Below are positions 8,854-38,730 of a stretch of 64,000 nt of DNA, piece after piece. The notes below the pieces were generated by a model, which did not search any database, was not told the DNA's origin, and was given only the letters and a program-made list of their open reading frames with translations. The translations under genes and the position numbers were made by a program. The first letter of the stretch is position 1, and each line of letters starts with the position of its first letter. The stretch spans positions 1-64,000 of the forward strand of contig SMNH02000001.1 in NCBI GenBank assembly GCA_006383075.2, written 5' to 3'. Source of the stretch: Kordia sp. TARA_039_SRF (GTDB taxonomy: Bacteria > Bacteroidota > Bacteroidia > Flavobacteriales > Flavobacteriaceae).

Positions 8854-8942
8854 CAAAAGTAGGATGGATTTGCAGCGTATTTTGCCGAAAACACCTTAAG
8901 CGAAATTATCCTTAGACGAAATGCAATTTCCTTTAGTCCAAT
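8854..8942 (-). promoter_or_regulatory. tandem LytTR-type site A plus -7 element (RR-GT2 gene)
   Basis: Read on the minus strand: distal half-site ATTGGACTA (8942-8934), 12-bp spacer, proximal half-site TTTCGTCTA (8921-8913), then 51 bp to a -7 element TACTTTTG (8861-8854). The start codon of the RR-GT2 gene is 79 bp beyond. No -33 TTTG is visible at its usual place. The segment CTAAAG and the TTGCATTTCGTCTA core are shared with site C at 30919. The site could also influence the divergent gene at 9050. Confidence 0.6.
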
Positions 8943-9049
8943 TAAAAATTGCACCGTTTATCTTTGATTTCATCGAAAAGTACATTTTACAAATCAGATA
9001 TTTTGTAAGTAAATGACTATATTCGGTTTGAAGGCAGAAACATTCCTTT

Positions 9050-12000
9050 ATGAAAAAAACGACTAACAAATTATTACTACTAGCGCTACTTCTCGGAGTT
9101 GTGTTTCATGGTACGTCTATTTTTTTCACGCTCGAAACTACCTATGACGCATTAATTCACTTATTTTTTGCAGATCATTACGCCGAAAGTTGGTTTGAGC
9201 CTTGGAATTACAAATGGTACACAGGATTTACCGTGATGAGTTATCCGCCGCTCGTTCATCAATCCATTGGTGCGTTGTCGTTTATTGGCGGATTGAAATT
9301 TGGCTTGTTTACCGTTGCTATTATTGCGGTAATACTCTTTATAACTGGCGTATATCGCTTTTCGTTACTAATGACAGGCAATAAAAGAGTAGCAGGTTAT
9401 GCGGCTATTTTGGCTGTTTTTTCGTCTTCATTTGTGGAAACTTTACACATCTTTGGACAATTGCCAAGTATTGTGGGAATTTCAGTGTTGATGCACGCGT
9501 TACCCGAAATCTATCTTTGGCTAAAAACAGGCAAGTACAAATATCTTTTTACCTCGCTTTCGCTGATTGCTGTAACGGTGACATCGCATCATGTAACGCC
9601 TATTTTCGGAATGGTTTTCTTTATTTTTCCGTTAATCGGGATGGTACTCATGGATGCTTCTCGCGAACGTGTACACAATATGAAAGAAGTCACCTTTCTC
9701 GTATTCTGGAAAACGTTTCGCAGACTTTTCAAGCGAATTGTGATGTTTGGAACGTTTTCTTTGGTGATTATTGTAAGCTGTATCTTACCGTATTGGATTA
9801 ACTCTAAAAACAATCCGATTACGCAAGTTCCGATACCACACGGTTCACGTGATCATTTTCTGGAAATCACTTCGTCAGGATTGGTGTTTTTTCTAATTCC
9901 GTGGGGAGTTTTACTGTTTCTATTACCCTATATTTTTTATAGATATTACAGCAAACGCTATCTCTTCTTTGGTTTATCCATTACCTTATTATTTGTATTA
10001 GGAACTGGCGGAACAACGCCTATTCCACGCATGATTTTGGGAGAAACGGCTTTCAATATCTTAACCTTAGACCGTTTTACACTTTGGGCTTCCATTATGT
10101 CGTTGCCGTTGTTTGGCGAATTTGTCTATCGTTTCGCTGATGCTGATTTAAAAAGACATTTTCAGCAAAAATTTGGCGCTATGTATCATCGAATCGTTGG
10201 TGGCGGATTGGCGGCATTGTTTGTTTTCATGACAATTTTTACGATGAGTTTAGGGTATTTTCGACCATCGCAACCGCAAAAAATCAAGATGTTGCCCATT
10301 GTCAATTTTCTCAATCAAGACCAACACGACCAATGGCGTTATTTAACTCTAGGTTTTGGTGACCAAATGGCGTGGTTGTCCGCACAAACCAATGCGTTAA
10401 CCGTAGATGGAAACTATCATTCAGCACGTCGTTTGCCAGAACTAACCACGCGACCAATTGAACGCTTGGAAAACTCAAAATTCAAAGGTGTTGCAGGCAT
10501 CGGTTCGTTACAACAATTCTTGACAACACCCGAAAAATACAACCTGAAATACATTTTTTCCAACGATAAATTTTATGATCCAATTCTCTATTTCTGTGGT
10601 TGGCAGCGTTTATCACCATTGGAAAATGGCATCATGGTTTGGGAAAAATTAAATGTGCCGCCGTTGTCATCTATCTTACCAAAAGATGAGGTGGCAACGT
10701 GGCAAAAATTAGCTTGGGGAACCATACCGTTTCTCACTGTGATGTTGGCGTTGTTGTTCAACATTCAACCTATTTTTTTAAGATACATTCAGCGAAAGCG
10801 AACCGATTCGCAAACATATCTGCAATATGACAAAGGCTACACAAAATTTTCAAGCAAACTCGTTCGTATCAATCATATTTGGGCGATTATGTTGGTGGGA
10901 ATTATAACATTTGGAAGCTATCAATTCTATATAAAAAATGATGCGCAGCGTTCGCCTGAAAATGTCGTAAAAGCCTATTATGACGCGCTCGATTTTAAAG
11001 AATTTGAAAAAGCACACAGCTATATCAATCCGAAAAATAATTTGACGATAGCCCAATACATGCTCGAAATTTCGTCTACGGACGGATTGCTAAGTTCGTA
11101 TGCAAAATTAGATGCCATTGAAACTGTTATCACTAAAAAAACAGATAGATTGGCAACGGTAACAGTACACACCAAATGGATTACGCCGTTGGAAAAAATT
11201 GAAAAAACAGCCTATAAAACGGTGGTCAAGCGCAACAACAAATGGTTTTTAGAAGCGGAAACTCCAGAAGCCGATTTGCCGCCAGACCAACTATTCACAG
11301 CAAATAAAACGACCTATTTCAATCACGGAAGAAGACGTATTACCACTGAGCAAACCTACCATGAAGATGTGTTGAAACAGCCTGTATTGGAAATCATTTC
11401 GGCAACATTGGTACAGCGAAATGGTCATTATGCCATTGTGGGCGAAGTGCAAAATATTGACAATGTGCCTGCAGATGTGGTGTTAAAAGGAACGTTGTAC
11501 AACGATGAAAATGTAGCATTGGCAACGTATAATGCCAAATATCACATGAAGCACAAACTGATGCCGAAGGAAAAAACGCCGTTTCGTATCAATTTTGAAG
11601 GTATTGCCTGGTCAAAAACACAGGATTCCATTCCGAAAACCTTCAATCCTGATGAGTTTACGCCAGTGGATTTTACAGAAGCGCCCACAAAATTCAATCT
11701 GCAAGCGGCAGGCAATGTTTCGGGTTCGGATTTGTATAAAAATATGGTCTTGAGTAATGTGCAAGTGACTTCGGAAACGATTAATGGAAACCTGTTCAAT
11801 AGCGGATTGCAGGAAATTACGGTTCCGCAGTTATTGGTATCGTATTACAATGATCATCAGCAACTTTTGTGGGTAGACCATCAGTTTCTGGATGAAGGAA
11901 TTCGTCAGCAACGCCAGCAAGCATTTCGGTATACAATCTTGCAAAATGACACCATAAAAGTCATCAGTACTGACATGAAAAACTGTTTTGTCAATGGTTT

Positions 12001-12130
12001 GCCGAACGAAGATATTTCGAGAAAAATCATTCCAGAACGGAAAAATTACCAGCAATTACAACCGATTCAAAATTCGGTGTACAGCTTTATAAATATTGAA
12101 TTAAACGCCTATATCGGAAATCCAAAATGA
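9050..12130 (+). CDS. large multi-membrane protein, PTPS-related/GT-C-like, with periplasmic NTF2-like domain
   Basis: 1026 residues. The first about 610 contain roughly ten hydrophobic membrane segments with an early periplasmic loop TYDALIHLFFADHYAESWFEPWNYKWYTG (written here in two overlapping pieces: TYDALIHLFFADHY, then AESWFEPW), resembling the acidic-loop region of GT-C/PMT-like transferases and of the family called 6-pyruvoyl-tetrahydropterin-synthase-related membrane proteins. After a further membrane segment near 625-645, residues 660-760 look NTF2-like (VVKAYYDALDFKEFEKAHSY) and the rest is a beta-rich extracytoplasmic region. It heads a tightly overlapping operon with a secreted protein and a GH5-like hydrolase, pointing to polysaccharide assembly. 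Exact reaction unknown. Confidence 0.8.
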   Translation: MKKTTNKLLLLALLLGVVFHGTSIFFTLETTYDALIHLFFADHYAESWFEPWNYKWYTGFTVMSYPPLVHQSIGALSFIGGLKFGLFTVAIIAVILFITGVYRFSLLMTGNKRVAGYAAILAVFSSSFVETLHIFGQLPSIVGISVLMHALPEIYLWLKTGKYKYLFTSLSLIAVTVTSHHVTPIFGMVFFIFPLIGMVLMDASRERVHNMKEVTFLVFWKTFRRLFKRIVMFGTFSLVIIVSCILPYWINSKNNPITQVPIPHGSRDHFLEITSSGLVFFLIPWGVLLFLLPYIFYRYYSKRYLFFGLSITLLFVLGTGGTTPIPRMILGETAFNILTLDRFTLWASIMSLPLFGEFVYRFADADLKRHFQQKFGAMYHRIVGGGLAALFVFMTIFTMSLGYFRPSQPQKIKMLPIVNFLNQDQHDQWRYLTLGFGDQMAWLSAQTNALTVDGNYHSARRLPELTTRPIERLENSKFKGVAGIGSLQQFLTTPEKYNLKYIFSNDKFYDPILYFCGWQRLSPLENGIMVWEKLNVPPLSSILPKDEVATWQKLAWGTIPFLTVMLALLFNIQPIFLRYIQRKRTDSQTYLQYDKGYTKFSSKLVRINHIWAIMLVGIITFGSYQFYIKNDAQRSPENVVKAYYDALDFKEFEKAHSYINPKNNLTIAQYMLEISSTDGLLSSYAKLDAIETVITKKTDRLATVTVHTKWITPLEKIEKTAYKTVVKRNNKWFLEAETPEADLPPDQLFTANKTTYFNHGRRRITTEQTYHEDVLKQPVLEIISATLVQRNGHYAIVGEVQNIDNVPADVVLKGTLYNDENVALATYNAKYHMKHKLMPKEKTPFRINFEGIAWSKTQDSIPKTFNPDEFTPVDFTEAPTKFNLQAAGNVSGSDLYKNMVLSNVQVTSETINGNLFNSGLQEITVPQLLVSYYNDHQQLLWVDHQFLDEGIRQQRQQAFRYTILQNDTIKVISTDMKNCFVNGLPNEDISRKIIPERKNYQQLQPIQNSVYSFINIELNAYIGNPK

Positions 12131-13338
12131 TGAAATTAAACTCTTTTTTATATTACCTATTCATATTTGCGTCAAGCGCGAATGTACTTTTGGCGAATAC
12201 TTCCGAAGGCATTCAACTAGAAACAACACAACAACAATTCACCGCTGGCGAAACCATTATATTGACATTTTCTGGAACGCAAGATGCAACTATCCAATTA
12301 TACTGCTCAAACAGTTACGGAACAACATTGCTATCGCCAAAAGTTGTGGAAAATCGACTGGAATACACTTTTCCAAAACAAATTTCAAGCAAAACAGGAA
12401 TCGTCAATTGGAAGCTATTGACAAAAAAAATAGCACTTTCGGGAACATTTACCATCATTCCACAAACTACGCCAACTTCTTTAGAAACCTATCTCGGTCC
12501 GCCAAGTATAGAAGCTGGCGAAAAAGACTATGCGATGTTGGTAGTGATTCCAACTGATGCGCTGGACAATCCTGTACAATCACAAACACAAGTCACAATA
12601 CAAAAGCAATTTCTAGCCGATGTACAACAAGAAACCGTTCAAACCAACAATTTAATTGCGTATCAACGTATCTATTCACCCAAAAAAAATGGTAGAATGT
12701 TACTAGCGACGGAATGTCTCGGCATCAATTCGGAAGAATACACACTTAACATAACACCTGCAATTGCTACAAATTTTGACATTTTCACCAAACGCGCACA
12801 CGAATACGCAGATGGCAATCAAATTACGACGTTTACGACTTCCATCATCAAAGACAAAAACAACAATGTGGTGAGCGATGGCACCTACGTGGAATTTTTC
12901 ATCACAAACAGCAAAGGAAGTGTGTTAAAAACTTCTGGAATGACGATTGAAGGCGTTGCCACAGCGCAAATGCTGCATCCAGATTATGAAGAAACATGGA
13001 CTGTTAAAGCACACGTAGCAGGAATTTCGGAAAGCAATTCTATGTCGCTTTCGTACACAAAAGTCATGGACGATTTTGCTATTTCATTCTCGAAAAACAA
13101 TCGAAATATTAACGTTGGTCCGTTGCGAAGCTTTATGAATCAACGTATTCCAGACGGTTTGCAAGTCACGCTACGCATTTCTCAACACGGAAAAACAAAA
13201 GAAATCTATGTAAAAGAATCGCGTGACGGATTTGTCCATTTTGAGCTCAATCCGAACATTTTTATCAACGGAATCTACGATGTAGAAATCACTGCGGCAG
13301 GAATCACGAAAACGAAAAAAGCACTTCAACTATGGTAA
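12127..13338 (+). CDS. secreted Ig-like beta-domain protein
   Basis: 403 residues. An N-terminal signal peptide (MKLNSFLYYLFIFASSANVLLA) is followed by at least three beta-sandwich-like segments: FTAGETIILTFSGTQ, a middle region around LGPPSIEAGEKDYAMLVV, and a segment FTTSIIKDKNNNVVSDGTYV that is typical of bacterial Ig-like/invasin repeats. No catalytic motif is recognised. The start overlaps the upstream stop by four bases (ATGA) and the end overlaps the GH5-like gene by seven, so the three products probably work together at the cell envelope, perhaps holding or guiding a nascent polysaccharide. Confidence 0.8.
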   Translation: MMKLNSFLYYLFIFASSANVLLANTSEGIQLETTQQQFTAGETIILTFSGTQDATIQLYCSNSYGTTLLSPKVVENRLEYTFPKQISSKTGIVNWKLLTKKIALSGTFTIIPQTTPTSLETYLGPPSIEAGEKDYAMLVVIPTDALDNPVQSQTQVTIQKQFLADVQQETVQTNNLIAYQRIYSPKKNGRMLLATECLGINSEEYTLNITPAIATNFDIFTKRAHEYADGNQITTFTTSIIKDKNNNVVSDGTYVEFFITNSKGSVLKTSGMTIEGVATAQMLHPDYEETWTVKAHVAGISESNSMSLSYTKVMDDFAISFSKNNRNINVGPLRSFMNQRIPDGLQVTLRISQHGKTKEIYVKESRDGFVHFELNPNIFINGIYDVEITAAGITKTKKALQLW

Positions 13339-14846: not shown

Positions 14847-14894
14847 TGTGTTAATTTGAAAATTTGCTGATTTAAAAATGGACTTTCAAACTTC

Positions 14895-14915
14895 ATGCTG
14901 AACTTGATTCAGCAT
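14895..14915. repeat. short palindromic repeat, copy 2
   Basis: ATGCTGAA-cttga-TTCAGCAT, arms perfectly complementary. It lies between convergent genes, followed at about 15010-15050 by another hairpin-forming segment (tacttcgag ... gaagta). Confidence 0.75.
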
Positions 14916-15045
14916 CCCACAAAAAGCTAAAAATCATCAATCAAAAATCGGCAATCGTACATCAAATAGATTCCTACCTTTGCAGGAATAATAAAGAAAA
15001 TATAGTCAACTACTTCGAGGCACGCCCGCGAAGCAATCTGAAGTA

Positions 15046-16320: not shown

Positions 16321-16453
16321 GCAGTGTAATTTCTTGACAAAAATACATTATAAAATGGAATTTACCGTGAATGAAAACTTTCTCAGTGACGTGTTTTTTG
16401 TTTAGGAGTTTATTCGTTTAAATCTTTATGTGTGATTTTCTCACTGTTATGCG

Positions 16454-16474
16454 AAGTTGAATTAAGTTCAACTT
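16454..16474. repeat. short palindromic repeat, copy 3 (covariant)
   Basis: AAGTTGAA-ttaag-TTCAACTT. Relative to the other copies, the G-C pair in GCTGAA/TTCAGC is replaced by G-T on one arm and A-C on the other so that pairing is kept. Confidence 0.7.
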
Positions 16475-16522
16475 GACGAAATACATCATCAATCTTAGAA
16501 AATCATTGATATATTAAAAAAC

Positions 16523-16657: not shown

Positions 16658-16671
16658 TTTTGTAGCTAAAA

Positions 16672-23628: not shown

Positions 23629-23673
23629 TGCTTTTTGTAGATAAATTCTCAAAAAAGAGGAATCGCTAAAAAT

Positions 23674-23761
23674 TTTCATCTACACTTTTTTGCATTTCGT
23701 CTACACTTATTCTTCACTAAACTGCATTCGCGTTTTACTTATTTTTTATACTGTAACATTG
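23674..23761 (+). promoter_or_regulatory. tandem LytTR-type site B plus -7 element (signalling operon)
   Basis: Distal half-site TTTCATCTA (23674-23682), 12-bp spacer, proximal half-site TTTCGTCTA (23695-23703); both are followed by CACTT, so the direct repeat extends to 14 bp. A -7-like element TAACATTG (23754-23761, one mismatch to TAnnTTTG) begins after a 50-bp gap, and the first gene starts 25 bp later. No -33 TTTG is seen, as expected for an activated promoter. Confidence 0.65.
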
Positions 23762-23786: not shown

Positions 23787-24200
23787 ATGAAAAATACATT
23801 AAACGTACTATTAATCGAAGATAACATGATTGAAATCATGAAGATGAATCGGACAGTTTCGTTGTTAAAAGCCAAGCATGAAATTAGAGAAGCTAAAAAT
23901 GCAGAAGAGGCTTTAGCAATATTAGAAACGAAAGAAAATTTACCCGATATCATTCTCCTCGATTTGAACATGCCAAAGATTAACGGAATCGAGTTTTTAA
24001 CTATCTTAAAAAATGATCCTGACTTACGACACATTCCGACTATCATTTTAACAACTTCTGACAACAGAAAAGATATCTTAGAATGTTACCGCATTGGAAT
24101 TTCTGGCTATATTTTAAAGCCGTTGAAATATGAAGAATACGTGTCTAAAATTGAAATAGCACTTTCCTATTGGTCCATTAATGAACTAAAAAGTGCGTAA
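23787..24200 (+). CDS. single-domain response regulator
   Basis: 137-residue CheY-like receiver without output domain. Acidic pair E11-D12, phospho-acceptor D59 in ILLDLNMP, Thr in IILTTSDN, and Lys in GYILKPLKYEEY are all present. The NMPKINGIEFL and LRHIPTIILTTSD phrases are those of the Rcp1-like subfamily that often pairs with bacteriophytochrome/PAS kinases. First gene of a seven-gene operon; it may be a competing phosphate sink or act by protein contact with the downstream kinases. Confidence 0.94.
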   Translation: MKNTLNVLLIEDNMIEIMKMNRTVSLLKAKHEIREAKNAEEALAILETKENLPDIILLDLNMPKINGIEFLTILKNDPDLRHIPTIILTTSDNRKDILECYRIGISGYILKPLKYEEYVSKIEIALSYWSINELKSA

Positions 24201-24257: not shown

Positions 24258-24797
24258 ATGAAAGGAATCGTCTTTACAGAATTTTTAGATTTGGTAGAAG
24301 ATACTTTCGGATTGGAAATGGTGGACCAAATCATTTCAGAATCCGAATTGCCATCTGAAGGTGCGTACACCGCAATTGGCACGTACAGCTTTTCGGAAAT
24401 GTTGCAACTCATCCAAAATTTGAGCAAGCATACCAACATTTCCATTGATGATTTATTACTTACCTATGGCGAACACTTTTTTAGTGTTATTGAAACCAAT
24501 TACGCTGGACTTTTAGCCACCTACAAAAACCCGATAGAAATGTTGTCTTCTATTGAAAATCACATTCATGTAGAAGTCCAGAAAATATATCCTGACGCTG
24601 AATTGCCAACTTTTATTGTACAAGAAAAAACAGCTACTACGTTGATTATGATTTACAAATCGAGTAGAGCTATGCATCATTTTGGACTGGGCTTAATGAA
24701 CAAAACATTTGAGCATTTTAACAGTTCGGCTGAAATTATTCTTGAAAAGATAAAAGACGACGGAACCGAAGTAAAATTTATCATTACCAAGCATTAA
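24258..24797 (+). CDS. H-NOX heme nitric-oxide sensor
   Basis: 179-residue haem-NO/oxygen-binding domain protein. The candidate proximal haem ligand is H104 in NHIHVEVQKIYPDAELPTF, aligned by eye with His102 of the Thermoanaerobacter protein; the haem propionate-binding YxSxR motif is Y133-K-S-S-R137. N terminus MKGIVFTEFLDLVEDTFG is typical. In other bacteria such proteins sit next to a histidine kinase or diguanylate cyclase and control it on binding NO. Here the next gene, 3 bp away, is a PAS histidine kinase. The distal pocket cannot be judged for O2 versus NO selectivity. Confidence 0.93.
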   Translation: MKGIVFTEFLDLVEDTFGLEMVDQIISESELPSEGAYTAIGTYSFSEMLQLIQNLSKHTNISIDDLLLTYGEHFFSVIETNYAGLLATYKNPIEMLSSIENHIHVEVQKIYPDAELPTFIVQEKTATTLIMIYKSSRAMHHFGLGLMNKTFEHFNSSAEIILEKIKDDGTEVKFIITKH

Positions 24798-24800: not shown

Positions 24801-26780
24801 ATGAGTCAGGAAAAAATTGACATATTAGAACGCGCCCTAAAACGAGAAAAAGCAGCACGACGAGCCGCCGAGAAAATTTTGGAAGACAAGTCGAGAGAAC
24901 TTTACTTGTTATCCGAGCAACTCAAAGTTTCTAACGCAAAACTCGAAGCATCTGTTAGTGAGACCTCTTCTCAATTGGCAGGTGTTTTTGAAAATATAAT
25001 AGATGCGTATTTAGTGATGGACTTATCAGGAAATGTGCTAAAAATGAACGATGCAGCGTCTGAACTTTTTGGATACAATCTTGACGAAGAGGCGCTGAAT
25101 GTTTCCAAATTGGTGTATCCAGAAGACAGCAAATACGCATACGATTCGTTCAATGAGTTGATTGAAAAAGGAACGTTTTCAAACTATACAGCACGTGTGT
25201 ATCGAAAAAATAAAGAAGTTCGTTGGGTTCAAATCAATGCGAGTCTTATTTATGATAAAACTGAAAAACCAATTGCCGCACAAGGAATTATCCGCGATAT
25301 TACCGATCAAAAAGCGTTTGACGACAAGTTGATTGAATCTGAAAACCGTCTGTCAACGCTCATTCTCAATTTAGACAGTGCCATTTTATTAGAAGATGAA
25401 GATCGAAAAATTGTATTGACTAATCAAAAATTCTGTGAAATCTTTAAAATTCCTGTTGAGCCACAATTTTTAACAGGACAAGATTGCTCGCAAGCCGCCG
25501 AAGAAAGTAAAAAACTATTCAAAGAGCCTGAAGCCTTTATCAAAATTATCAATCAAATTTTACACGAAAAAAAGCAAGTTATTGGCAAAGAATTGGTCAT
25601 GGCAGACGGCACAATTTTAGAATTGGATTTTATTCCAATCTTAAAAGGAAAAACCTATAAAGGGCATTTGTGGACGTACAGAGATATTACGCTCAACAGA
25701 CAATACCGCAAAAGTTTAGAGGCTCAAAAAGAAAAATACAGCAGTATTATTGCCAATATGAATCTTGGATTGGTAGAAGTTGACAATGATGATAAAATTT
25801 TGATGGTGAATCAAAGTTTCTGCGAAATATCAGGCTATGAGGAAGAAGAACTGATTGGAAAAGTTGGTGGAAAATTATTTCCGATTGTAGCAGATCAAAA
25901 TGTAATTGTTGAAGAAAACAAAAAACGATTGCAAGGTGAGTCCAATTCCTATGAAATTAAGGTTACCAACAAGAAAGGTGAAGCTCGGAATTGGTTGATT
26001 AGTGGCGCTCCAAACTATAATTTAAAAGGGGAAGTTATTGGCTCTATCGGAGTTCATTTAGACATTACTGAACTAAAAAATTTGGAAAAACAAAAGGAAG
26101 CCATCTTAAAAGAACTCGAAAAAAGCAACAAAGAATTATACGAATACGCACACATTGTTTCGCACGATTTAAAATCGCCGCTGCGCAGTATTGATGCCTT
26201 AATTTCTTGGATTAAATCTGACAACGAAGGAAAACTAGACGAAGAAACACTGCAAAATTTCAGCATGATTGAAAGCACGCTACAAACAATGGAAAATTTA
26301 ATTTCTGACATTCTAGCCTACTCGAGTGCAGGTGCAGAAACAGGAAAAATGGAAACTGTAGACTTGAACAAAACAATGGACGATTTGAAACGTTTGTTGT
26401 TTGTTCCTGAGCATATTACGATACACATTCCCGAAAAAATGCCCATAATAAAAGGAGATGCTACCAAATTTCAACAACTATTTCAAAACTTAATGAGCAA
26501 CGCCATTAAATTCTGTGATAAGGAAAATGGTATCGTCGAAATTGATTTTACTGAAGAAGCTTCATTCTATCAGTTTTCGGTGCGTGACAACGGTATTGGA
26601 ATTGAAAAAAAGTTTCATGATCGCATCTTTAAAATCTTTCATTCGCTCAACAAAAGCAAAGAATCAACAGGAATCGGTTTGTCGATAGTGAAAAAAATTG
26701 TAGATGTATACGAAGGAACTATTTGGCTAGAAAGTGAACCTGGCGAAGGCACAACCTTCTTTTTCACCTTAAAAAAATAG
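24801..26780 (+). CDS. PAS-repeat histidine kinase
   Basis: 659 residues, no membrane segments, so cytoplasmic. An N-terminal coiled coil (about 1-55, ILERALKREKAARRAAEKIL) precedes three PAS domains (about 55-170, 185-295, 310-430), a HisKA dimerisation domain with phospho-acceptor H455 in HIVSHDLKSPLRS, and an HATPase domain with N-box NLMSNAIKF, DNGIGI and STGIGLSIVKK. The N-terminal coiled coil is like that of kinases controlled by H-NOX proteins. Start ATG 24801 is three bases after the H-NOX stop. Likely partners: H-NOX upstream, receiver proteins at both ends of the operon. Confidence 0.95.
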   Translation: MSQEKIDILERALKREKAARRAAEKILEDKSRELYLLSEQLKVSNAKLEASVSETSSQLAGVFENIIDAYLVMDLSGNVLKMNDAASELFGYNLDEEALNVSKLVYPEDSKYAYDSFNELIEKGTFSNYTARVYRKNKEVRWVQINASLIYDKTEKPIAAQGIIRDITDQKAFDDKLIESENRLSTLILNLDSAILLEDEDRKIVLTNQKFCEIFKIPVEPQFLTGQDCSQAAEESKKLFKEPEAFIKIINQILHEKKQVIGKELVMADGTILELDFIPILKGKTYKGHLWTYRDITLNRQYRKSLEAQKEKYSSIIANMNLGLVEVDNDDKILMVNQSFCEISGYEEEELIGKVGGKLFPIVADQNVIVEENKKRLQGESNSYEIKVTNKKGEARNWLISGAPNYNLKGEVIGSIGVHLDITELKNLEKQKEAILKELEKSNKELYEYAHIVSHDLKSPLRSIDALISWIKSDNEGKLDEETLQNFSMIESTLQTMENLISDILAYSSAGAETGKMETVDLNKTMDDLKRLLFVPEHITIHIPEKMPIIKGDATKFQQLFQNLMSNAIKFCDKENGIVEIDFTEEASFYQFSVRDNGIGIEKKFHDRIFKIFHSLNKSKESTGIGLSIVKKIVDVYEGTIWLESEPGEGTTFFFTLKK

Positions 26781-26783: not shown

Positions 26784-27923
26784 ATGAAAACGGTACAACT
26801 TAAAAAAACAATACACACACAATGGGAATATGTAAGCGAAAAACTCACGCTGCAAAAGCCGTTGGTGTTGGTGTTTGGAAATCGGTTCATGTTAGAAGAT
26901 AAAGAACTGTATGCCGAAATTCGTGCGTTGTTTCCTGATGGTGAATTTGTTTTTGGTTCGAGTGCTGGCGATATTACATCGCACTATGTAGATGACGAAA
27001 GTATTACGATAACCGCTATTGAATTTGAGAAAAGTTCATACGTCATTAAAACAGCAAACATGCTTGAAAATGAGGTAAAAAAAGACAGTTTTGAAACAGG
27101 AAAACACCTTATTGAGCAATTTGATACCCAAGGATTGAAACATGTATTCGTTTTTTCGGAAGGAAGTTTTGTCAACGGAAGTCAATTAACACTTGGCATG
27201 AACGCTGCCACCAAAAACAATGTACTAATTACTGGCGGATTATGTGGCGATGCAGCACGCTTTGAAAAAACCCTAGCTTCCTACAATGAGCTTCCAAAAC
27301 CTGGAGAAATTGTGGCAATTGGTCTGTATGGCGAAACCCTTGAAGTAAGTTTTGCCATTAAAGGAGGTTGGATTCCTTTTGGTCCAGAACGTGTTGTTAC
27401 CAAATCAAGCTCCAATATTTTATATGAATTGGATAACAAACCTGCGTTAGATTTATACAAAAAATACCTAGGCGAAAAATCGAAAGAATTGCCCGCAGCA
27501 GCCTTGTTATATCCGCTCAAAGTAAAATCGACCAACGAAAAACAATCAATTGTACGCACTATTTTAAATATTGACGAACAGGAAAACTCCATGATTTTAG
27601 CAGGAGATATTCTTGAAAATTCGCGTGTACAATTAATGATGACCAATGTAGATACCATTGTAGATGCTTCTGAAAAAGCGGCAACTACGGCACTACAATA
27701 TAGAGAACATACGCCAGAACTTGCGATATTGGTAAGTTGTATTGGTAGAAAATTAGTATTAGATCAACGTGTAGAAGAAGAAGTAGAAGAAGTCATTGAG
27801 GTAATAGGAGCAACCACCACAGTTTGCGGATTGTATTCGTACGGAGAAATTGCCCCTTTTATTGGTGAAAACAACTGTCAATTGCACAACCAAACGATGA
27901 CGATTACACTTATAAGTGAATAA
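26784..27923 (+). CDS. FIST-domain sensor (NosP-type)
   Basis: 379 residues with FIST_N (about 25-215: FGSSAGDIT, FVFSEGSFVNGSQLT, GGLCGDAARFEKT) followed by FIST_C (about 225-379: LAGDILENSRVQLMMTN, YSYGEIAP). FIST proteins in several bacteria (NosP) bind haem and NO and inhibit a neighbouring histidine kinase; others sense small ligands such as amino acids. The gene is placed directly between two histidine kinases and three genes from an H-NOX. Haem binding is inferred from context and family, not seen as a defined motif. Overlap/abutment with its neighbours supports one operon. Confidence 0.92.
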   Translation: MKTVQLKKTIHTQWEYVSEKLTLQKPLVLVFGNRFMLEDKELYAEIRALFPDGEFVFGSSAGDITSHYVDDESITITAIEFEKSSYVIKTANMLENEVKKDSFETGKHLIEQFDTQGLKHVFVFSEGSFVNGSQLTLGMNAATKNNVLITGGLCGDAARFEKTLASYNELPKPGEIVAIGLYGETLEVSFAIKGGWIPFGPERVVTKSSSNILYELDNKPALDLYKKYLGEKSKELPAAALLYPLKVKSTNEKQSIVRTILNIDEQENSMILAGDILENSRVQLMMTNVDTIVDASEKAATTALQYREHTPELAILVSCIGRKLVLDQRVEEEVEEVIEVIGATTTVCGLYSYGEIAPFIGENNCQLHNQTMTITLISE

Positions 27924-27927
27924 GCTG

Positions 27928-28977
27928 ATGAATCCCTTACTAAAACGACAATTGCGAAAATATATCTCTCAAGATTTGCAAAATCATCCTGAGATGGAGC
28001 GGTTTTTAGATGCTGTAAATCGTTCCTACAATAATTCTGAAGAACAATTTTCGATGTTGCAACGCGCTACGGCGATTAGCTCAGAAGAACTTTTTGAGGC
28101 AAATCAGCAATTGCGAAATGAATCGGATGCGCAAAAGGAAATTATTGAAAAACTAAAAAGTGTTATTGATACGCTTAAATCGTATGGCTTGACCGATGGT
28201 GAAACCACTGAAAATGTAGCATCAGATTCGTTGAGTTTGGTTGATTTAATCGATAATCAAACCAAAGAAATATTACAAATTAATCAGCAGCGCGATAAAT
28301 TACTTGCCAATTTGGAACGTCAAAATCAAGAGTTGAACAATTACACACATTTAGTTTCACACGATTTAAAATCGCCCTTGCAAAGTATTGATGCGCTCAC
28401 TACTTGGCTCAAAGAAGATTACAACGAGTTACTTGACGACAACGGAAAGCAAACCATCAAACTGATTGAGAACAATGTAGAAAAGATGGACAAACTCGTC
28501 AAAGGCATCTTAAAATATTCTACTATTGGGGCGATTGGACATCAGTTTTACGATGTGGATTTACAGCAAACTGTTCAAAAAATTATTGATTTTATGGACA
28601 TTCCTGCGCACTTTACGATTTCCATCCCGCAAAAATTGCCGATTATTAAAGGAGATAATTTCCGCATGGAAGAATTGTTTCGAAATTTGCTTCGAAATGC
28701 TATCAAATTCAACGACAAACCCAAAGGAGAAATCACGATTGGCTATACTGACAACAATGATTTTTGGGAATTTTACATTCAAGATAACGGCAAAGGAATT
28801 GAAGAAAAGTATTTTGAAAAGGTATTTGTTGCCTTTCAAAAACTGGAAAATAATTATAAATCTTCAGGTATTGGACTCTCCATTGTCAAGAAAATTGTAG
28901 AATTGTATGGTGGTGCTATTTGGATACAATCGACTCCAAGTGAAGGAACTACATTTTATTTTACACTAAAAAAATAA
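27928..28977 (+). CDS. histidine kinase lacking recognisable sensor domain
   Basis: 349 residues from ATG 27928; an in-frame GTG at 27916 would overlap the FIST stop codon. The N-terminal 130 residues are helical and coiled (SSEELFEANQQLRNESDAQKE, in part), then a HisKA domain with H145 in HLVSHDLKSPLQS and an HATPase domain (LLRNAIKF, DNGKGIEE, SSGIGLSIVKK). It is a close relative of the C-terminal half of the upstream PAS kinase. With no sensor of its own, it plausibly takes its input from the FIST protein, as known NosP-associated kinases do. Confidence 0.94.
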   Translation: MNPLLKRQLRKYISQDLQNHPEMERFLDAVNRSYNNSEEQFSMLQRATAISSEELFEANQQLRNESDAQKEIIEKLKSVIDTLKSYGLTDGETTENVASDSLSLVDLIDNQTKEILQINQQRDKLLANLERQNQELNNYTHLVSHDLKSPLQSIDALTTWLKEDYNELLDDNGKQTIKLIENNVEKMDKLVKGILKYSTIGAIGHQFYDVDLQQTVQKIIDFMDIPAHFTISIPQKLPIIKGDNFRMEELFRNLLRNAIKFNDKPKGEITIGYTDNNDFWEFYIQDNGKGIEEKYFEKVFVAFQKLENNYKSSGIGLSIVKKIVELYGGAIWIQSTPSEGTTFYFTLKK

Positions 28978-28980: not shown

Positions 28981-29298
28981 ATGGAGCAACCAAACTTAAC
29001 CTACGTAGATCAATTAGCACGCGGCGATGAAAAAATTCGACAAACGCTTATTGATGTTATTAAAACAGAGTTTCCAGAAGAAGAAAAAGAATATTATACT
29101 GTTTTAGCGAAAAAAGATTACAAAAAAATAGAGGAAAGCGTACACAAAATTAAGCATAAAATTAGTATTTTGGGACTTGAGAAAAGCTATGAACTCGCAA
29201 ACACATACGAACACAATCTACGAGAGCATCGAATGGAAGGTGAAACAGATTTTGAAGAAATTTTGAACACTATTTCGGCGTACCTAAAAACAATATAA
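28981..29298 (+). CDS. Hpt phosphotransfer protein
   Basis: 105-residue helical-bundle histidine phosphotransfer protein. The phospho-acceptor is H55 in ESVHKIKHKISILGLEK, fitting HxxK with the small-residue turn that follows. It starts 3 bp after the kinase stop. It likely carries phosphate between the kinases and the LytTR regulator just downstream, making this a multi-step relay. Confidence 0.88.
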   Translation: MEQPNLTYVDQLARGDEKIRQTLIDVIKTEFPEEEKEYYTVLAKKDYKKIEESVHKIKHKISILGLEKSYELANTYEHNLREHRMEGETDFEEILNTISAYLKTI

Positions 29299-29301: not shown

Positions 29302-30009
29302 ATGAATTGTATTATTATTGATGATGAAAAATTGGCAAGAACCATACTAAAAACTTTGTGTGATGATGTAGATTCATTGCAGGTTGTGGGCGAATTTCCA
29401 AATGCCATGCAAGCCATCAAATATCTCAATGAAAACGAAGTTGATTTGATTTTCTTGGACATTCACATGCCCGATTTTACAGGATTTGACTTTGTAAAAA
29501 CGCTCAAAAATCCGCCGAGTATTGTATTGACGACTTCCGATTCGCAATTTGCCATTGAAGCTTTTCAATATGAATGTATTGTTGATTATTTGCTAAAACC
29601 TATTGCCGCTGAACGATTTAAAACTGCCGTTACTAAAGCTAAAAAACATCAGTTAATTTCGGCAAAAACGGAAGAACAAAACGCTGAAAAAACATACGAA
29701 AATGATTTTTACATCAATATTGATCGCCGTTTGATTAAAATTGACATTCCTAGCATTTATTTGGTAGAAGCGAAAGGCGATTATATTCACATTAAAACGG
29801 AAGACAAAAATTACACCGTACATTCTACGTTAAAGAAGATTGAGGAAAAATTACCTGAATCCTTATTCTTAAAAATTCACCGTTCATACATCATCAACTT
29901 AAAGAAAATCATTGATATTGAAGACAATAGCGTGTTGATTAAGAAAGATGTAATTCCTGTAAGTCGTTCCAAGCGTCCGGAATTGATGAAGCGTTTGGAT
30001 TTACTTTGA
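29302..30009 (+). CDS. LytTR-family response regulator
   Basis: 235 residues. Receiver domain 1-120 (D7-D8, phospho-acceptor D53 in LIFLDIHMP, Thr in VLTTSDS, Lys in DYLLKPI) and a C-terminal LytTR DNA-binding domain about 135-235 (IYLVEAKGDYIHIKTEDKN, FLKIHRSYIINL, VIPVSRSKRPELM). LytTR domains bind pairs of 9-bp direct repeats spaced by about 12 bp, exactly the pattern found at 8913, 23674, 30919 and 38663. Last gene of the operon, 3 bp after the Hpt gene. Confidence 0.96.
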   Translation: MNCIIIDDEKLARTILKTLCDDVDSLQVVGEFPNAMQAIKYLNENEVDLIFLDIHMPDFTGFDFVKTLKNPPSIVLTTSDSQFAIEAFQYECIVDYLLKPIAAERFKTAVTKAKKHQLISAKTEEQNAEKTYENDFYINIDRRLIKIDIPSIYLVEAKGDYIHIKTEDKNYTVHSTLKKIEEKLPESLFLKIHRSYIINLKKIIDIEDNSVLIKKDVIPVSRSKRPELMKRLDLL

Positions 30010-30145: not shown

Positions 30146-30203
30146 GACGTAAAAACAATCTAAAAGTCTAACACGTCTAAGTCCGTCTAACCTTCTAACA
30201 AAT

Positions 30204-30881: not shown

Positions 30882-30918
30882 AGTTCAAAAATATACTTTT
30901 CTTACTATCGATGAAAAA

Positions 30919-31006
30919 ATTTGTCTAAAGCATTTTGCATTTCGTCTACACTTTTTCCAATCGTGCCGACGTAAGCGATTTTCCCTTTTTTCACACTGTA
31001 GATTTG
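30919..31006 (+). promoter_or_regulatory. tandem LytTR-type site C plus -7 element (DUF4114/T9SS gene)
   Basis: Distal half-site ATTTGTCTA (30919-30927), 12-bp spacer, proximal TTTCGTCTA (30940-30948) followed by CACTT; the -7 element TAGATTTG (30999-31006, full match to TAnnTTTG) starts after 50 bp. The start codon is 19 bp further on. No -33 TTTG is present. Confidence 0.65.
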
Positions 31007-31025
31007 TGATATAAAACAAAACGCC

Positions 31026-33479
31026 ATGAAGCAATTACTACTTTTTATAAGCATCGCTTTTGCCACAGTAGCAAACGCACAGAATTATCAATATTTAGGA
31101 AATTACACTTCCAACGGAACACCTTTGTATTTGGAAACTCCTGGCGATATTGTGTCAGTAGAAACTCTTGAATTGATTAGCAATTCACTTCCTGAAAGTT
31201 ATCCAGTTCCCGATTACAATCCACATTATATCTCATCAGGTTACGACACTGATGTGATTATTACAGAAACTGCCGATGTTTGGGTAACATTTGTCAGTGA
31301 AGGCGCAGGCTACCGAAATGTGCTAGGTTTTTATACCTACGATGTAAACAATCCGTCAGCAACAGCGCCACAACCAGAAGACATTACCATTATTTTTCCA
31401 AATGCTTCCGCACTCGGAAGTGGTGGCGGATTGCAAGTTGGTGATAAGGTAAAAATTGGAACTTTTCAACCAGGAACGGGAATTGGTTGGGTTTTGTTGG
31501 CGAATGCTTGGGATTCTAATAATAGCACAGTTGGACATGGTTTGTGGAAATTATTTTCCAACCCAGATTACAATCCAGAAGCCCAAGAAGAATTACGTTA
31601 CCACAATGTATTGCTCAACGATTCAAGAAATGAGCGTATTATTTTAGGTTTTGAAGATATTCGTCGCGATTACAGTTCGTGTGATAATGATTTTAATGAT
31701 GCTGTTTTTTATATCACGGCAAATCCGCATACTGCATTGAAAACTACCAATTACGCAGACGTAGAAAGTGCCACAGATGTAACTTCTGCCAACGACGGCG
31801 GATTGGAAAGTAACGGTAATTTAGCAAGTCTGATTGCAAAGCGTAATTTACGCAGAACACAAACAAAAAATATTCACAATAAGAAGCAATATCAAACGCT
31901 ATTTGACAAAAAGACATTTACTTCAAAAAGTACTGAAAACAGTACGAGTTTGGATATGTATTTGCCGCAAACGGGCATGTTTGGAACGGAAACTGCGTAT
32001 GTTTCGAGTCCCACAGATTTGATAGGTATTACCAATGCTTCTGAGATATTTGCTTTAGACATGTATCAAGACAATTCGCGCGTTTCTGCGGTATTGGCTA
32101 CGGCAACACAAGGCAGTATTTATGACCATTCCAAAGTAATTTGTGATCGTTTAAACAATTCTTCCTTAAAAGATATCAGAACCGTAATGGTACGCGGACA
32201 TCAGTTGATTAGTGCCAAAATAGAACGCGCTTCGGGCGAAATTGAATACACTTTGAGTTTTTCAGTAAAATTGGGCGAAACAGCAAATGAATTGTTTAGT
32301 TTCTGGAATATTGCACAATATCCTGACGGCGATTATTATAATTTTCAAATTTGGGGAAGTTCCTTTTCGCAGGTGTTTACTATTGGAAATCATATTATTG
32401 ATACGCTTACGCTGGAAAAGCCACTGAATAGTCAAATCGTAAGTGATGTAATTCCGCCAGTATTTGTGAGTTCTGGGTATTATGAAAACGGAAATATTCA
32501 TCTACAAATTATCAATAAAGCAAATGCCACTTCCGTATTGTTTGATGCCAATATTGCTGCAACTGAAGTTCCCAATGCTACTTCCATGACGCAGAATATA
32601 GCACTATCAGGCGATTGGAATGAATCACTCACTATTGCAACAGGACAATTGTTTGATATCGGTTTTTCGCTAAGTACTGCTGTTTCTGCACAACAAGATG
32701 CTTTATACTTGGCAGACGGTCCTTGGGGAATTGATTTTCAAGAAAATACAGTTGTTGTCGATAGTTTTCTAGTAGAAAACACAAATACACAAAACCAAGG
32801 TGATACATACGAAATTGAACGACAAGCCAGTGTTTCTGGACAAGTACAAGAAACCATCAATCTTTTTAGACATGTATTACCTGGCGATCAAACTTTGGAT
32901 GTGAGTATGTATGACACATTTCAATTTAGCATCACCAATTCGCAACCTGTAGAAGTAATTTTAGTACAAGAAGGTTTGACTGACTGGAATAATCGTTATC
33001 GTAAAGTCATTTCACAAAACAATACCGAAACCTTATATCGAATTCCTTTTGACGAATTTGAAGACGGCAACGGAAATGTAGCGACACTTACCGATATCAA
33101 AACCGTTATTTTTTCCATACAAGGCGATTATCAAAACTTTACTCCTTTCAACATTCAAGTTACCAATGCTCGTTTTGGCATGGAAAATACCTTAGACGTC
33201 GCAGAATTTGAACAAGAAACACCCACAAATACTGTTTTGGCAATTCCAAATCCGATGACAACACACACTCAATTACAATTTACAGCAAAGCAATCCGGGA
33301 ACGCGCAATTGTTTGTTTATGACCAAGTAGGTAAAGTAGTTTATACGATAAAGGTTAAAACCGAAGTTGGTCAGAACAACATCCCCCTAAACCGCAATAA
33401 CCTGCGTCCCGGGTTGTATTTCTGTAGCATACAAAACAATACACAAACTTATAAAACGGCAAAGTTGCTGGTTAAATAG
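31026..33479 (+). CDS. DUF4114-domain T9SS type A surface protein
   Basis: 817 residues with signal peptide MKQLLLFISIAFATVANA. Residues about 110-245 form a DUF4114-like domain (VGDKVKIGTFQPGTGIGW; LGFEDIRRDYSSCDNDFND), whose Asp/Asn-rich DNDFND segment suggests calcium binding. A DUF4842-like beta region follows. The C-terminal 80 residues are a type A T9SS sorting domain (AIPNPMTTHTQLQF ... YDQVGKVVY ... RPGLYFCSIQNN). Likely a secreted, cell-surface adhesin or matrix protein. Its promoter carries LytTR-type site C, linking it to the signalling operon. Confidence 0.92.
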   Translation: MKQLLLFISIAFATVANAQNYQYLGNYTSNGTPLYLETPGDIVSVETLELISNSLPESYPVPDYNPHYISSGYDTDVIITETADVWVTFVSEGAGYRNVLGFYTYDVNNPSATAPQPEDITIIFPNASALGSGGGLQVGDKVKIGTFQPGTGIGWVLLANAWDSNNSTVGHGLWKLFSNPDYNPEAQEELRYHNVLLNDSRNERIILGFEDIRRDYSSCDNDFNDAVFYITANPHTALKTTNYADVESATDVTSANDGGLESNGNLASLIAKRNLRRTQTKNIHNKKQYQTLFDKKTFTSKSTENSTSLDMYLPQTGMFGTETAYVSSPTDLIGITNASEIFALDMYQDNSRVSAVLATATQGSIYDHSKVICDRLNNSSLKDIRTVMVRGHQLISAKIERASGEIEYTLSFSVKLGETANELFSFWNIAQYPDGDYYNFQIWGSSFSQVFTIGNHIIDTLTLEKPLNSQIVSDVIPPVFVSSGYYENGNIHLQIINKANATSVLFDANIAATEVPNATSMTQNIALSGDWNESLTIATGQLFDIGFSLSTAVSAQQDALYLADGPWGIDFQENTVVVDSFLVENTNTQNQGDTYEIERQASVSGQVQETINLFRHVLPGDQTLDVSMYDTFQFSITNSQPVEVILVQEGLTDWNNRYRKVISQNNTETLYRIPFDEFEDGNGNVATLTDIKTVIFSIQGDYQNFTPFNIQVTNARFGMENTLDVAEFEQETPTNTVLAIPNPMTTHTQLQFTAKQSGNAQLFVYDQVGKVVYTIKVKTEVGQNNIPLNRNNLRPGLYFCSIQNNTQTYKTAKLLVK

Positions 33480-33614
33480 CAGTTTTTTTATTCATGTTAA
33501 TTTTATTTTGGTTGATTGAAAAGGCAAAAAGGATGTAGTGTTCTTTTTGTCTTTTTTTGATTTATAAATAGGTATATTTATTGTACGTAGAATAATCAGT
33601 CAAAAAGCAATTAT

Positions 33615-36600: not shown

Positions 36601-36743
36601 AACGCTTGTTTTTAGACAATTGTAAGTTAAGCACAACCTATCAATCATTCATCGCAAGAAAATTGAATCTCACCGACAACGACGCTTTTTTGGTAGCATT
36701 TCGGAGATATTTGTAGCAAGTTTAATCACTAAAACACATAAAA

Positions 36744-37022
36744 ATGGCTTTACAAATCACACAACAAAACGGAACATTTTTACTAACTGGAAAGTTAAAC
36801 ACAACAACTACACGCTCGTTTATTATTCACTTCGAATACATCATTGAGCAATGTCAAAACGTCGTAGTAAACATTGATGAAGTTACCGAGATAGATCATG
36901 ATGGTTTGGAAGGAATCAAAACGTTGACGGCAATTGCTTTGCAAAACCACACACTATTTTCAGTCATCGGAAATGGTTGTAAGGATATTTATCAAGATTG
37001 GAATTGCTCGCAAGTTGCTTGA
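36744..37022 (+). CDS. STAS-domain protein without phospho-acceptor serine
   Basis: 92 residues with the STAS fold pattern of anti-sigma-factor antagonists (FLLTGKLNTTTTRSFIIHF, NVVVNIDEVTEIDHDGLEGI in part). At the position where SpoIIAA-like proteins have DSSG, this one has DHDG, so there is no phosphorylatable Ser/Thr. Its partner is unknown; no anti-sigma kinase is visible. Placed upstream of the flippase, it may control polysaccharide export by protein contact. Confidence 0.75.
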   Translation: MALQITQQNGTFLLTGKLNTTTTRSFIIHFEYIIEQCQNVVVNIDEVTEIDHDGLEGIKTLTAIALQNHTLFSVIGNGCKDIYQDWNCSQVA

Positions 37023-37117
37023 TTAGTAGTGAGTATTGAGGTGTTAGTATTGAGATACCTTCTTATTTAAATTATGACAAACATAATCGAGCCTAGCGGC
37101 TCTGAAAAACAACAATA

Positions 37118-38350
37118 ATGATTGCAATTACAAAAAAAATCAAAAGGAGTTTTACCTCAGCACACGTTTTTATGCTCAGTGTGCTGTTGGTCAACGGTGG
37201 AAATTATGTGTATAATTTACTCTTGGGACGATTTTTAGGTCCCGAAAAATTTGCTGATGCCGCCGTATTGGTTACTTTTTTATTGGTATTTTCGTTTATC
37301 GCGATGACATTTCAGTTGGTCACGGCAAAATTTGCTGTTGTGTTTGAAGACAGCATTTTCAGAGCGTTTATTGCTAAAATGTATAAAAATTGCATTACAG
37401 CAGGACTCGTTTTTGGCTGTTTCATTGTTGGTTTTGCTTCTGAATTGCAAACTTTTTTCAACACGTCATCTTCCACAATGTTTGTAGTTTTTGGTTTGGG
37501 AATTCCGTTATATTTCATCATGAGTGTCAATCGCGGAATTTTTCAAGGGAAACAACAATTGGTATCACTTTCGGTTACCTATCAGGCAGAAATGTTGAGT
37601 CGTTTGGTATTGACGTTGGCATTTTTATACTTTCTACAAACTGATAGTTCGCTACTAATTTCCTTCGGAATTTTAGCATCCTTTTGCTTCGGATTGTTTC
37701 CGTTGCACGTTAAAAATAGTACGCTTAAAAACACTTTTTCCTTATCCAAAACGCAGGCAAAATTGGTGCGTAACTTTTTTATCATCACCGCTTTTTACGA
37801 ACTCACACAAATCATCATTAACAACAGTGATATTTTGTTGGTAAAGCATTACTTTTCGTCCTATGATGCAGGATTGTATGCATCGTTGGCGTTAATTGGT
37901 CGCGTCGTATATTTTATGGCATGGATGTTTGTGATGTTGCTATTGCCAACCGTTGTCAAATTAAAAAAAGAAGGAAAAGCAACCGCTCCTATTCTACTGA
38001 AATACGTAAGTTATATTGCTGGAATTGCAGCTGTAATCATCGTTGGATGCGTACTGTTTCCAACGCAAATCATTCACATTTTATTTGGTGAAAACTATTT
38101 AGAAATCACGCCATTGTTATGGAAATATGCGCTTGCAACAGGAATTTTCGCGCTGTCCAACATCTTCGCGTATTACTATTTATCCTTAGACAAATACATT
38201 CCCGTAGTACTTTCAGGAATCTTCGGAATGTTGCAAGTGGTTTTAATTGTATTCTTCCACGAAAACTTAGCACAAGTCGTTAACGTACAAATCTTTTCGA
38301 TGGTTTTTTTGTTGCTGGTGCAGTTGTCTTTTTTCTTAAGGAATCGATAG
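37118..38350 (+). CDS. polysaccharide flippase (Wzx/MATE-like)
   Basis: 410 residues with about twelve membrane segments. The N terminus (SAHVFMLSVLLVNGGNYVYN, LLLGRFLGPEKFADAAVL) is typical of the polysaccharide-transport/oligosaccharide flippase family of the MOP superfamily, which moves undecaprenyl-linked sugars across the inner membrane. The C-terminal half has the usual FGENYLEITPLLWKYALA segment. It lies between the STAS gene and a GT4 gene on the same strand, supporting a surface-polysaccharide role. Confidence 0.9.
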   Translation: MIAITKKIKRSFTSAHVFMLSVLLVNGGNYVYNLLLGRFLGPEKFADAAVLVTFLLVFSFIAMTFQLVTAKFAVVFEDSIFRAFIAKMYKNCITAGLVFGCFIVGFASELQTFFNTSSSTMFVVFGLGIPLYFIMSVNRGIFQGKQQLVSLSVTYQAEMLSRLVLTLAFLYFLQTDSSLLISFGILASFCFGLFPLHVKNSTLKNTFSLSKTQAKLVRNFFIITAFYELTQIIINNSDILLVKHYFSSYDAGLYASLALIGRVVYFMAWMFVMLLLPTVVKLKKEGKATAPILLKYVSYIAGIAAVIIVGCVLFPTQIIHILFGENYLEITPLLWKYALATGIFALSNIFAYYYLSLDKYIPVVLSGIFGMLQVVLIVFFHENLAQVVNVQIFSMVFLLLVQLSFFLRNR

Positions 38351-38356
38351 CTATTT

Positions 38357-38640
38357 TAGACTGCTGACGCTTTTAGAAACGCTTTGCTTTAGACTTTTTA
38401 GATCAATAGTAAAGTTTAGTATTCAAAGTACTTCTCGATACATTTTTCCTTCATTTCGACAGGCTCAATGTGTGGAAAAACACTCGAAGGGACGGTTTTT
38501 GATTAACGATTTAGGATTGTTGATGTTAGATGTTGAATCTTTCAATCAAAAAGAACAATAAAGAAAAGTAATCTTGATTCTAATAGCAAAGTGGTCTTAC
38601 AATCTAAAAGCGTCAGCAGTCTAGAGCAAAGCGTTTCTAA
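38357..38640. repeat. long inverted repeat with nested dispersed repeat
   Basis: A perfect 20-bp inverted repeat has arms at 38357-38376 and 38604-38623 (both containing GCTGACGC or its complement), extended outwards and inwards by partial matches (AGAAACGCTTTGCTTTAGA / TAGAGCAAAGCGTTTCTAA, shown in ordinary order). Inside lies a family 1 repeat (38420-38495: TACTTCTCGATACA ... CACTCGAAGGGACGG). This covers much of the 403-bp gap between flippase and GT4 genes. Confidence 0.8.
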
Positions 38641-38662
38641 AAGAAATCCAAACATAATCTCC

Positions 38663-38730
38663 TTTCGTCTAAACATACTTGCATTTCGGCACAGCGTGTC
38701 CATTTTTCAGAGTTTGAAAACAGACATTTG
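38663..38730 (+). promoter_or_regulatory. tandem LytTR-type site D plus -7-like element (GT4 gene)
   Basis: Distal half-site TTTCGTCTA (38663-38671), 12-bp spacer, proximal half-site TTTCGGCAC (38684-38692) preceded by TTGCA as in sites A-C. The nearest -7-like element is GACATTTG (38723-38730, one mismatch), a 30-bp gap that is about two helical turns shorter than in A-C. The GT4 start is 23 bp later. Confidence 0.55.

Follow-up and report, generated by a model that had tools for sequence, protein, structure and literature searches.

The window analysed here comprises the first 64,000 nucleotides of contig SMNH02000001.1 of Kordia sp. TARA_039_SRF (Flavobacteriaceae; assembly GCA_006383075.2). 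It carries an operon in the order RR1, H-NOX, PAS kinase, FIST, second kinase, Hpt and LytTR, whose last gene, starting at 29302, encodes a LytTR-type response regulator. The surrounding genes encode glycosyltransferases, a Wzx-type polysaccharide flippase and a DUF4114 protein with a type IX secretion system (T9SS) sorting domain (Table 1). A first-pass annotation, made from the sequence alone, had proposed that tandem direct repeats before the operon, a receiver-GT2 fusion gene, the DUF4114/T9SS gene and a GT4 gene are binding sites of this regulator.

The LytTR regulator has receiver and LytTR domains above the curated cut-offs (73.4 and 78.8 bits), and its phospho-acceptor residues D7, D8, D53, T78 and K99 are invariant among 21 aligned LytTR regulators. 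Compared with solved structures, the LytTR domain matches 3d6w only. Among the relay and target proteins scanned with Pfam, no DNA-binding domain was found besides LytTR, and the operon proteins scanned include no cyclic di-GMP (c-di-GMP) enzyme. The H-NOX protein gives an HNOB match of 139.7 bits and has both the proximal His and the YxSxR motif; its best match in the PDB is 6bde, followed by 6bdd. Of 178 positions in the 6bde chain, 177 are identical in the Kordia algicida protein from the same operon, and only residue 71 differs. By sequence, the window protein is the orthologue of the crystallised K. algicida H-NOX, and this orthology suggests that it binds nitric oxide.

The four repeats lie where the first-pass annotation had placed them, each as a pair of half-sites with an exact 12-bp spacer. 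Mismatches to TTTCGTCTA-N12-TTTCGTCTA number one at 23674-23703, two at 30919-30948 and three each at 8913-8942 (minus strand; all in the distal half) and 38663-38692 (all in the proximal half). The pattern exceeds what shuffled DNA yields, with four matches in the window against 0.10 expected, and none of 100 dinucleotide shuffles gave four. The common core TTGCATTTCG described earlier holds for these four sites; family-wide, orthologous promoters reveal a longer unit, CATTCRTCKACACTT, occurring twice at a 21-bp period. The operator motif is a 14-bp direct repeat with that period, ATTCRTCKACACTT-n7-ATTCRTCKACACTT. In the part of the source drawn on here, LytTR proteins are described as recognising a pair of imperfect direct repeats, each of 8-13 bp and separated by about 12 bp, and the spacing is crucial (PMC4064291). 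The window sites have this form, two direct repeats of that length and separation, and they are genetically linked to a LytTR regulator.

Conservation sets the sites apart from their flanks. Orthologous operons were taken from eight other Kordia genomes and from other genera, and a site stands before RR1 in all nine Kordia promoters compared (the window, L061-L067 and L192). Variants were seen by eye before RR1 in 9 of 10 other-genus loci (L071 is unclear), and most of these later entered the profile described below. In nine-way Kordia alignments, the fraction of invariant columns in the site as against the flanks is 27/35 versus 54/163 at the RR1 promoter, 33/35 versus 51/163 at the receiver-GT2 promoter and 19/35 versus 32/152 at the GT4 promoter (p = 2e-6, 2e-12 and 1.5e-4). 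A site is present in 9/9 Kordia promoters for GT4 and in 9/9 for receiver-GT2. The conservation expected of real sites is thus found in the orthologous promoters. Of ten other Kordia genomes, eight have the receiver-GT2 fusion itself, as do seven genomes of other genera (60 searched, own genome included).

The sites also track the regulator gene across the family. A sequence-only profile, R1, was made from 34 conserved orthologous sites, the four window sites included, and applied to 199 family genomes drawn evenly (cut-offs: profile E<=0.001, LytTR protein E<=1e-80). A site is present in 56 genomes, a LytTR gene in 78 and both in 49 (Fisher 1e-18); minus the eight training genomes, 42 have both, 7 the site only, 28 the gene only and 114 neither (Fisher 2e-16). 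In the 49 genomes with both, 72 of 82 sites, spread over 42 genomes, lie within 50 kb of the LytTR gene. Among unlinked sites, those of G223, G180, G157 and G112 precede homologues of DUF4114, GT4, receiver-GT2 and RR1. Sites in G176 (L356), G108 (L358) and G090 (L360) lie on a contig other than that of the LytTR gene or more than 500 kb away; they stand beside genes unmatched by window proteins and may be extra targets or chance matches.

A closer view comes from the best 80 of 568 named loci (Kordia, Tenacibaculum, Winogradskyella, Polaribacter, Algibacter, Psychroserpens and others), among which L333 and L336 lie on one contig with the same matches and L259-L261 overlap the training set. 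At E<=0.01, R1 finds 129 sites in 69 loci, every one on the strand of the LytTR gene. Going downstream, the first gene with a match is RR1 for 58 sites, Wzx for 28, GT4 for 18, DUF4114 for 17 and receiver-GT2 for 1, with none in reach for 7. In keeping with the intergenic position that had been anticipated, no site among the 129 is placed deeper than 60 bp within coding sequence that matches any of the 21 window proteins serving as queries. RR1 and Hpt are each found in 79 of the loci, the PAS kinase in 78, H-NOX in 77, the second kinase in 61 and FIST in 58, counts in which tblastn can confuse the two kinases. A loose His pattern is present in 76 of these 77 H-NOX proteins and YxSxR in 71. 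The surrounding genes include DUF4114 in 63 stretches, TPR in 56, Wzx in 47 and GT4 in 37. A count that uses no profile agrees with the 21-bp period: offset 21 accounts for 31 TTCRYCKA pairs in the 76 non-Kordia loci, all on the plus strand, and no other offset between 9 and 60 has more than five. Operon variants at L320 and L326 have FIST and the second kinase, and H-NOX and the PAS kinase were not found there. Paired close sites, or tandem DUF4114 genes apparently each with its own site, are seen at G101:C1:851079 and 851486 and at L066 11348 and 14165.

Promoter geometry provides independent evidence, because the -7 box is no part of the profile. The promoters were read with the Flavobacteriaceae -7 consensus, which differs from the sigma-70 type; in the part of the source drawn on here, the flavobacterial sigma-A box is given as TAnnTTTG from -12 to -5 (PMC9723704). 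At each target proposed in the first-pass annotation (the regulator's own operon, receiver-GT2, DUF4114/T9SS and GT4), site and -7 box candidate are separated by a fixed distance. The window candidates match TAnnTTTG exactly at the DUF4114 and receiver-GT2 promoters and with one mismatch at the other three. Among the 129 sites, 93 have a -7 box (<=1 mismatch) at 59/60 or 38/39 bp, whereas other offset sets average 3.6 and peak at 16. A fifth, weaker site at 36644-36683 (profile match at 36645-36678), additional to the four of the first-pass annotation, is backed by the same geometry, since its first half-site keeps the 59-bp distance to the -7 box. That spacing recurs in five other Kordia genomes; in four other-genus loci the spacing is 60 in two, and no such pair exists in two. 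At the GT4 promoter, the functional register is probably one period off from the 38663-38692 pair, because half-site 38663 sits 60 bp from the -7 box and has partners 21 bp to either side. An RNA leader element was considered as well and is unlikely, since the position of the -7 box puts the sites 5' of the predicted transcript.

Table 1. Candidate operator sites, -7 boxes and genes in the window
Feature	Coordinates	Strand	Remarks
S1, LytTR-type site	8906..8945	-	before receiver-GT2 fusion gene; profile E 1.4e-5
S2, LytTR-type site	23671..23710	+	half-sites 23674, 23695; before RR1-HNOX-HK-FIST-HK2-Hpt-LytTR operon; profile E 6.1e-9
S3, LytTR-type site	30916..30955	+	half-sites 30919, 30940; before DUF4114/T9SS gene; profile E 1.6e-7
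S4, LytTR-type site	38639..38699	+	three half-sites at about 38642, 38663, 38684; before GT4 gene; profile E 3.8e-3 (register 38646-38677)
Fifth, weaker site	36644..36683	+	half-sites 36647, 36668; before 92-aa STAS-like open reading frame (ORF) and Wzx; position weight matrix (PWM) 11.7; profile E 0.32
-7 box candidate TACTTTTG, receiver-GT2	8854..8861	-	60 bp from second half-site start; same in 7/8 other Kordia promoters, the eighth left unscored as its core differs
-7 box candidate TAACATTG, RR1 operon	23754..23761	+	59 bp from second half-site start; same offset in 9/9 Kordia promoters
-7 box candidate TAGATTTG, DUF4114	30999..31006	+	59 bp from second half-site start; same place in 4/5 other Kordia DUF4114 promoters shown
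-7 box candidate GATATTTG, STAS-like/Wzx unit	36706..36713	+	59 bp from first half-site ATTCATCG at 36647
-7 box candidate GACATTTG, GT4	38723..38730	+	60 bp from middle half-site, 39 from third; same in 6/7 other Kordia promoters scored
RR1, single-domain receiver	23787..24200	+	
H-NOX haem sensor	24258..24797	+	151/178 positions identical to aligned PDB chain 6bde (Kordia algicida H-NOX)
PAS histidine kinase	24801..26780	+	
FIST-domain protein, NosP-like	26784..27923	+	under NosP cut-off
Second histidine kinase	27916..28977	+	
Hpt phosphotransfer protein	28981..29298	+	23.7 bits, just below cut-off 24.6
LytTR response regulator	29302..30009	+	proposed DNA-binding protein; receiver 4-110, LytTR 143-232
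Receiver-GT2 glycosyltransferase fusion	7599..8774	-	predicted target
DUF4114 protein with T9SS sorting domain	31026..33479	+	predicted target
92-aa ORF	36744..37022	+	predicted target; STAS-like by eye only, without Pfam match; orthologues in other Kordia
Wzx-type polysaccharide flippase	37118..38350	+	probable target; next gene after 92-aa ORF
GT4 glycosyltransferase	38754..39962	+	predicted target

Scanned over the 4.59-Mb Kordia sp. genome, R1 gives 18 matches at E<=10, among which the best outside the four window sites has E 0.13. The clear sites are local to this locus in this genome, since just the four window sites reach E<0.01, and the gap between them and the rest of the genome is informative despite training on those very sites. 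A conserved three-gene unit (1026 aa without a Pfam match, 403 aa and a GH5-like 504 aa) lies at window 9050-14846, divergent from receiver-GT2, and no site facing it was found.

Several results weigh against assigning the sites to the LytTR regulator, or narrow what the scans can say. The first-pass pattern with up to three mismatches per half failed its genome-wide check, with 35 matches compared with 48 for a reversed control; the loose pattern alone proves little, and further evidence was therefore needed. The training sites of R1 include some from 8 of the 199 family genomes and 3 of the 80 named loci; those from other genera were chosen by eye or with a PWM that itself derived from such choices, and the whole-genome scan with R1 scored 150 of 4039 first-look candidates. 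Among LytTR-positive genomes, 29 of 78 have no site at E<=0.001 (G015 and G028 have weaker sites, eye-picked for the PWM), and 11 of the 80 named loci have none at E<=0.01; divergent sites, cut contigs or true absence may account for these. The 1e-80 cut-off also mixes this LytTR protein with a paralogue, through which the genome G002 was counted. Outside Kordia a clear site is often absent: GT4 promoters score above 18 in 6 of 10 loci (one of them 471 bp upstream), and receiver-GT2 promoters score above 20 in just one of seven. The uniform strand in the named loci follows from the layout of the target genes, and window site S1 faces the opposite way, with its own target. On the input side, the FIST protein has FIST domains and scores 51.8 bits against the NosP model (NF041558), far below the curated cut-off of 450. 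The failed genome-wide check would fit a chance likeness of AT-rich intergenic DNA, but such an origin has next to no credibility against the shuffles, the genome-wide profile, conservation, linkage, promoter spacing and the count of offset-21 pairs.

Natural losses bear on whether another protein owns the sites. In G002, the closest genome, RR1, H-NOX, both kinases and FIST persist with 90-96% identity; the operon there has no Hpt match and a LytTR match of 61 columns only. No GT4 or receiver-GT2 match at E<=1e-80 was found in that genome, nor any DUF4114, TPR or Wzx match in the stretch read. Taken with the sensors and kinases that persist, the missing GT4 and receiver-GT2 matches and the reduced LytTR match count in favour of the LytTR assignment. 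The region (G002:C6:232000-251900, L191) retains sensors and kinases and an orphan DUF4114-type promoter, and the order of its genes points to a deletion combined with an inversion. Although no intact LytTR gene is present there, the operon site of G002 is perfect and a DUF4114-type site survives in decayed form, which counts against the regulator: the operon site may reflect a recent loss of the regulator or another binder. An unlinked DNA-binding protein, with the LytTR gene a mere neighbour, would explain this, as it would the G104 and G139 genomes, in which a profile match occurs without any operon gene in the stretch read. These two belong to the seven site-only genomes, among which another has a weak Hpt match only. 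In the remaining four, the site lies directly 5' of RR1 of the same operon; three have a LytTR gene of 52-63% identity in view and one is ended by a contig edge. Because 49 of the 56 site-bearing genomes have the LytTR gene, the geometry is of the LytTR type and the Pfam-scanned relay and target proteins offer no other DNA-binding domain, ownership by an unlinked protein is very unlikely.

A paralogous LytTR regulator in the same genome (C1:610565) has also to be weighed as sharing or owning the sites, being 66% identical with a closely similar DNA-binding domain. Its operon comprises RR1, a PAS kinase, Hpt and LytTR (L076), H-NOX not being found there, and has its own operator at G000:C1:614311-614369 (L363). 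That operator contains three half-sites (CATTAATCTA..., CATT... and ...TTTAATCGAAA) and is conserved in 11/11 Kordia copies. Half-sites 1 and 2 are 21 bp apart in 11/11 promoters and half-sites 2 and 3 are 21 or 22 bp apart; a comparison anchored on half-site 3 therefore shows 5 of 11 promoters shifted by one base. A profile of this operator, R2, finds one clear site in the genome, the paralogue's own (E 8.5e-14; next 0.04), and gives weak matches outside paralogue promoters at L061 8307 (E 0.0095) and window 60477 (E 0.094). R1 finds nothing at E<=1 in the 11 paralogue loci, and R2 finds no main-operon promoter. An operator common to both regulators was therefore rejected: the half-site has diverged and each profile misses the promoters of the other. 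G002 and G004 point the same way, since both retain the paralogue, yet neither GT4 nor receiver-GT2 is matched in them at E<=1e-80; G004 has the 66% paralogue only and no site below E = 0.05. A role for the paralogue at the window sites is accordingly extremely unlikely.

The sites are very probably the operator of the LytTR regulator at 29302, within a relay, probably with a nitric oxide input, that would control its own operon and a surface-polysaccharide cluster. The observation of the first-pass annotation is real and its interpretation is supported as largely right; it did not include the fifth promoter, the input through H-NOX and FIST, the third half-site at GT4 or the confinement of clear sites to this locus in this genome. 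Each site consists of two direct half-sites CATTCRTCKACACTT (three at GT4), 21 bp or two helical turns apart. One half-site lies 59-60 bp upstream of the -7 box, which in the usual register puts the half-sites at roughly -72 to -59 and -93 to -80 relative to the transcription start. In the proposed mechanism, a LytTR dimer occupying such a site would influence RNA polymerase there, and five transcription units would be controlled in this way: the regulator's own operon, the receiver-GT2 fusion, the gene for the DUF4114/T9SS surface protein, the STAS-like/Wzx unit and GT4. The Hpt protein would hand LytTR phosphate from two kinases governed by the H-NOX and FIST proteins, and with such governors nitric oxide, or else another haem ligand, is the most likely input.

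Activation by LytTR is suggested by position only. Activators typically sit at a fixed distance in this range, -60 to -93, clear of the -7 box and the start. The same LytTR protein might instead bind as a repressor freed by phosphorylation, as is described, in the part of the source drawn on here, for HnoC in the H-NOX network of Shewanella (PMC8738867). Autoregulation is compatible with either sign of control, but the sites at -60 to -93 keep a fixed distance outside the -7 box and start, and repression is unlikely. Because one target is a receiver-GT2 fusion, the relay may, tentatively, have two outputs, with Hpt passing phosphate to LytTR for transcription of the cluster and to the receiver of the fusion, gating the enzyme directly.

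The arrangement resembles known systems in part; those comparisons below that carry a citation draw on portions of the papers. AgrA/VirR-type operators of S. aureus and C. perfringens are likewise two imperfect direct repeats about 12 bp apart (PMC4064291). Kordia differs in having a relay with Hpt and haem/FIST sensors. The AgrA/VirR half-site sequence also differs from that of Kordia, and their kinase is peptide-sensing. AlgR of P. aeruginosa is a LytTR regulator of alginate, with exopolysaccharide targets as in Kordia, and its box CCGTTCGTC (PMC4064291) is identical at 8/9 positions to the family consensus half-site CCATTCGTC. AlgR sites are not necessarily direct repeats with a 12-bp spacing and may lie far away (PMC4064291), whereas the Kordia arrangement is of the AgrA type. 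The Shewanella Hno network shares an H-NOX beside a kinase and a response regulator that acts on transcription, with feedback on its own system (PMC8738867). In Kordia, by contrast, the output domain is LytTR, a FIST protein, a second kinase and Hpt lie in the same operon, and polysaccharide genes including the receiver-GT2 fusion are linked to it, with no c-di-GMP enzyme as noted above.

The K. algicida H-NOX (PDB 6bdd), the same gene in the same operon, has been studied as an isolated gas-binding protein, and the portion of that work drawn on here describes no regulon for it (PMC7356049). In the open-access library searched, no paper was found that joins LytTR with Kordia, with a Flavobacteriaceae regulon or with H-NOX in Bacteroidetes, or that joins a LytTR response regulator with direct repeats, 12-bp spacing and a consensus. 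In the excerpts considered of a paper that names both H-NOX and LytTR, LytTR concerns nitrosylation of AgrA.

The crystallised K. algicida H-NOX gains a concrete predicted output from these sites, and an operator with a spacing rule is defined for a LytTR regulator of Flavobacteriaceae. The rule, a half-site 59-60 bp from the -7 box with a 21-bp period, can be used to read the regulons of other genomes, and the paralogue pair with its diverged half-sites offers a natural test of how LytTR specificity evolves. If the two-output relay were true, a gas signal would set enzyme level and activity together, without c-di-GMP, in Flavobacteriaceae. The prediction is that nitric oxide or another haem ligand would act as a switch for surface polysaccharide, and for a surface protein of the T9SS type, in common marine bacteria.

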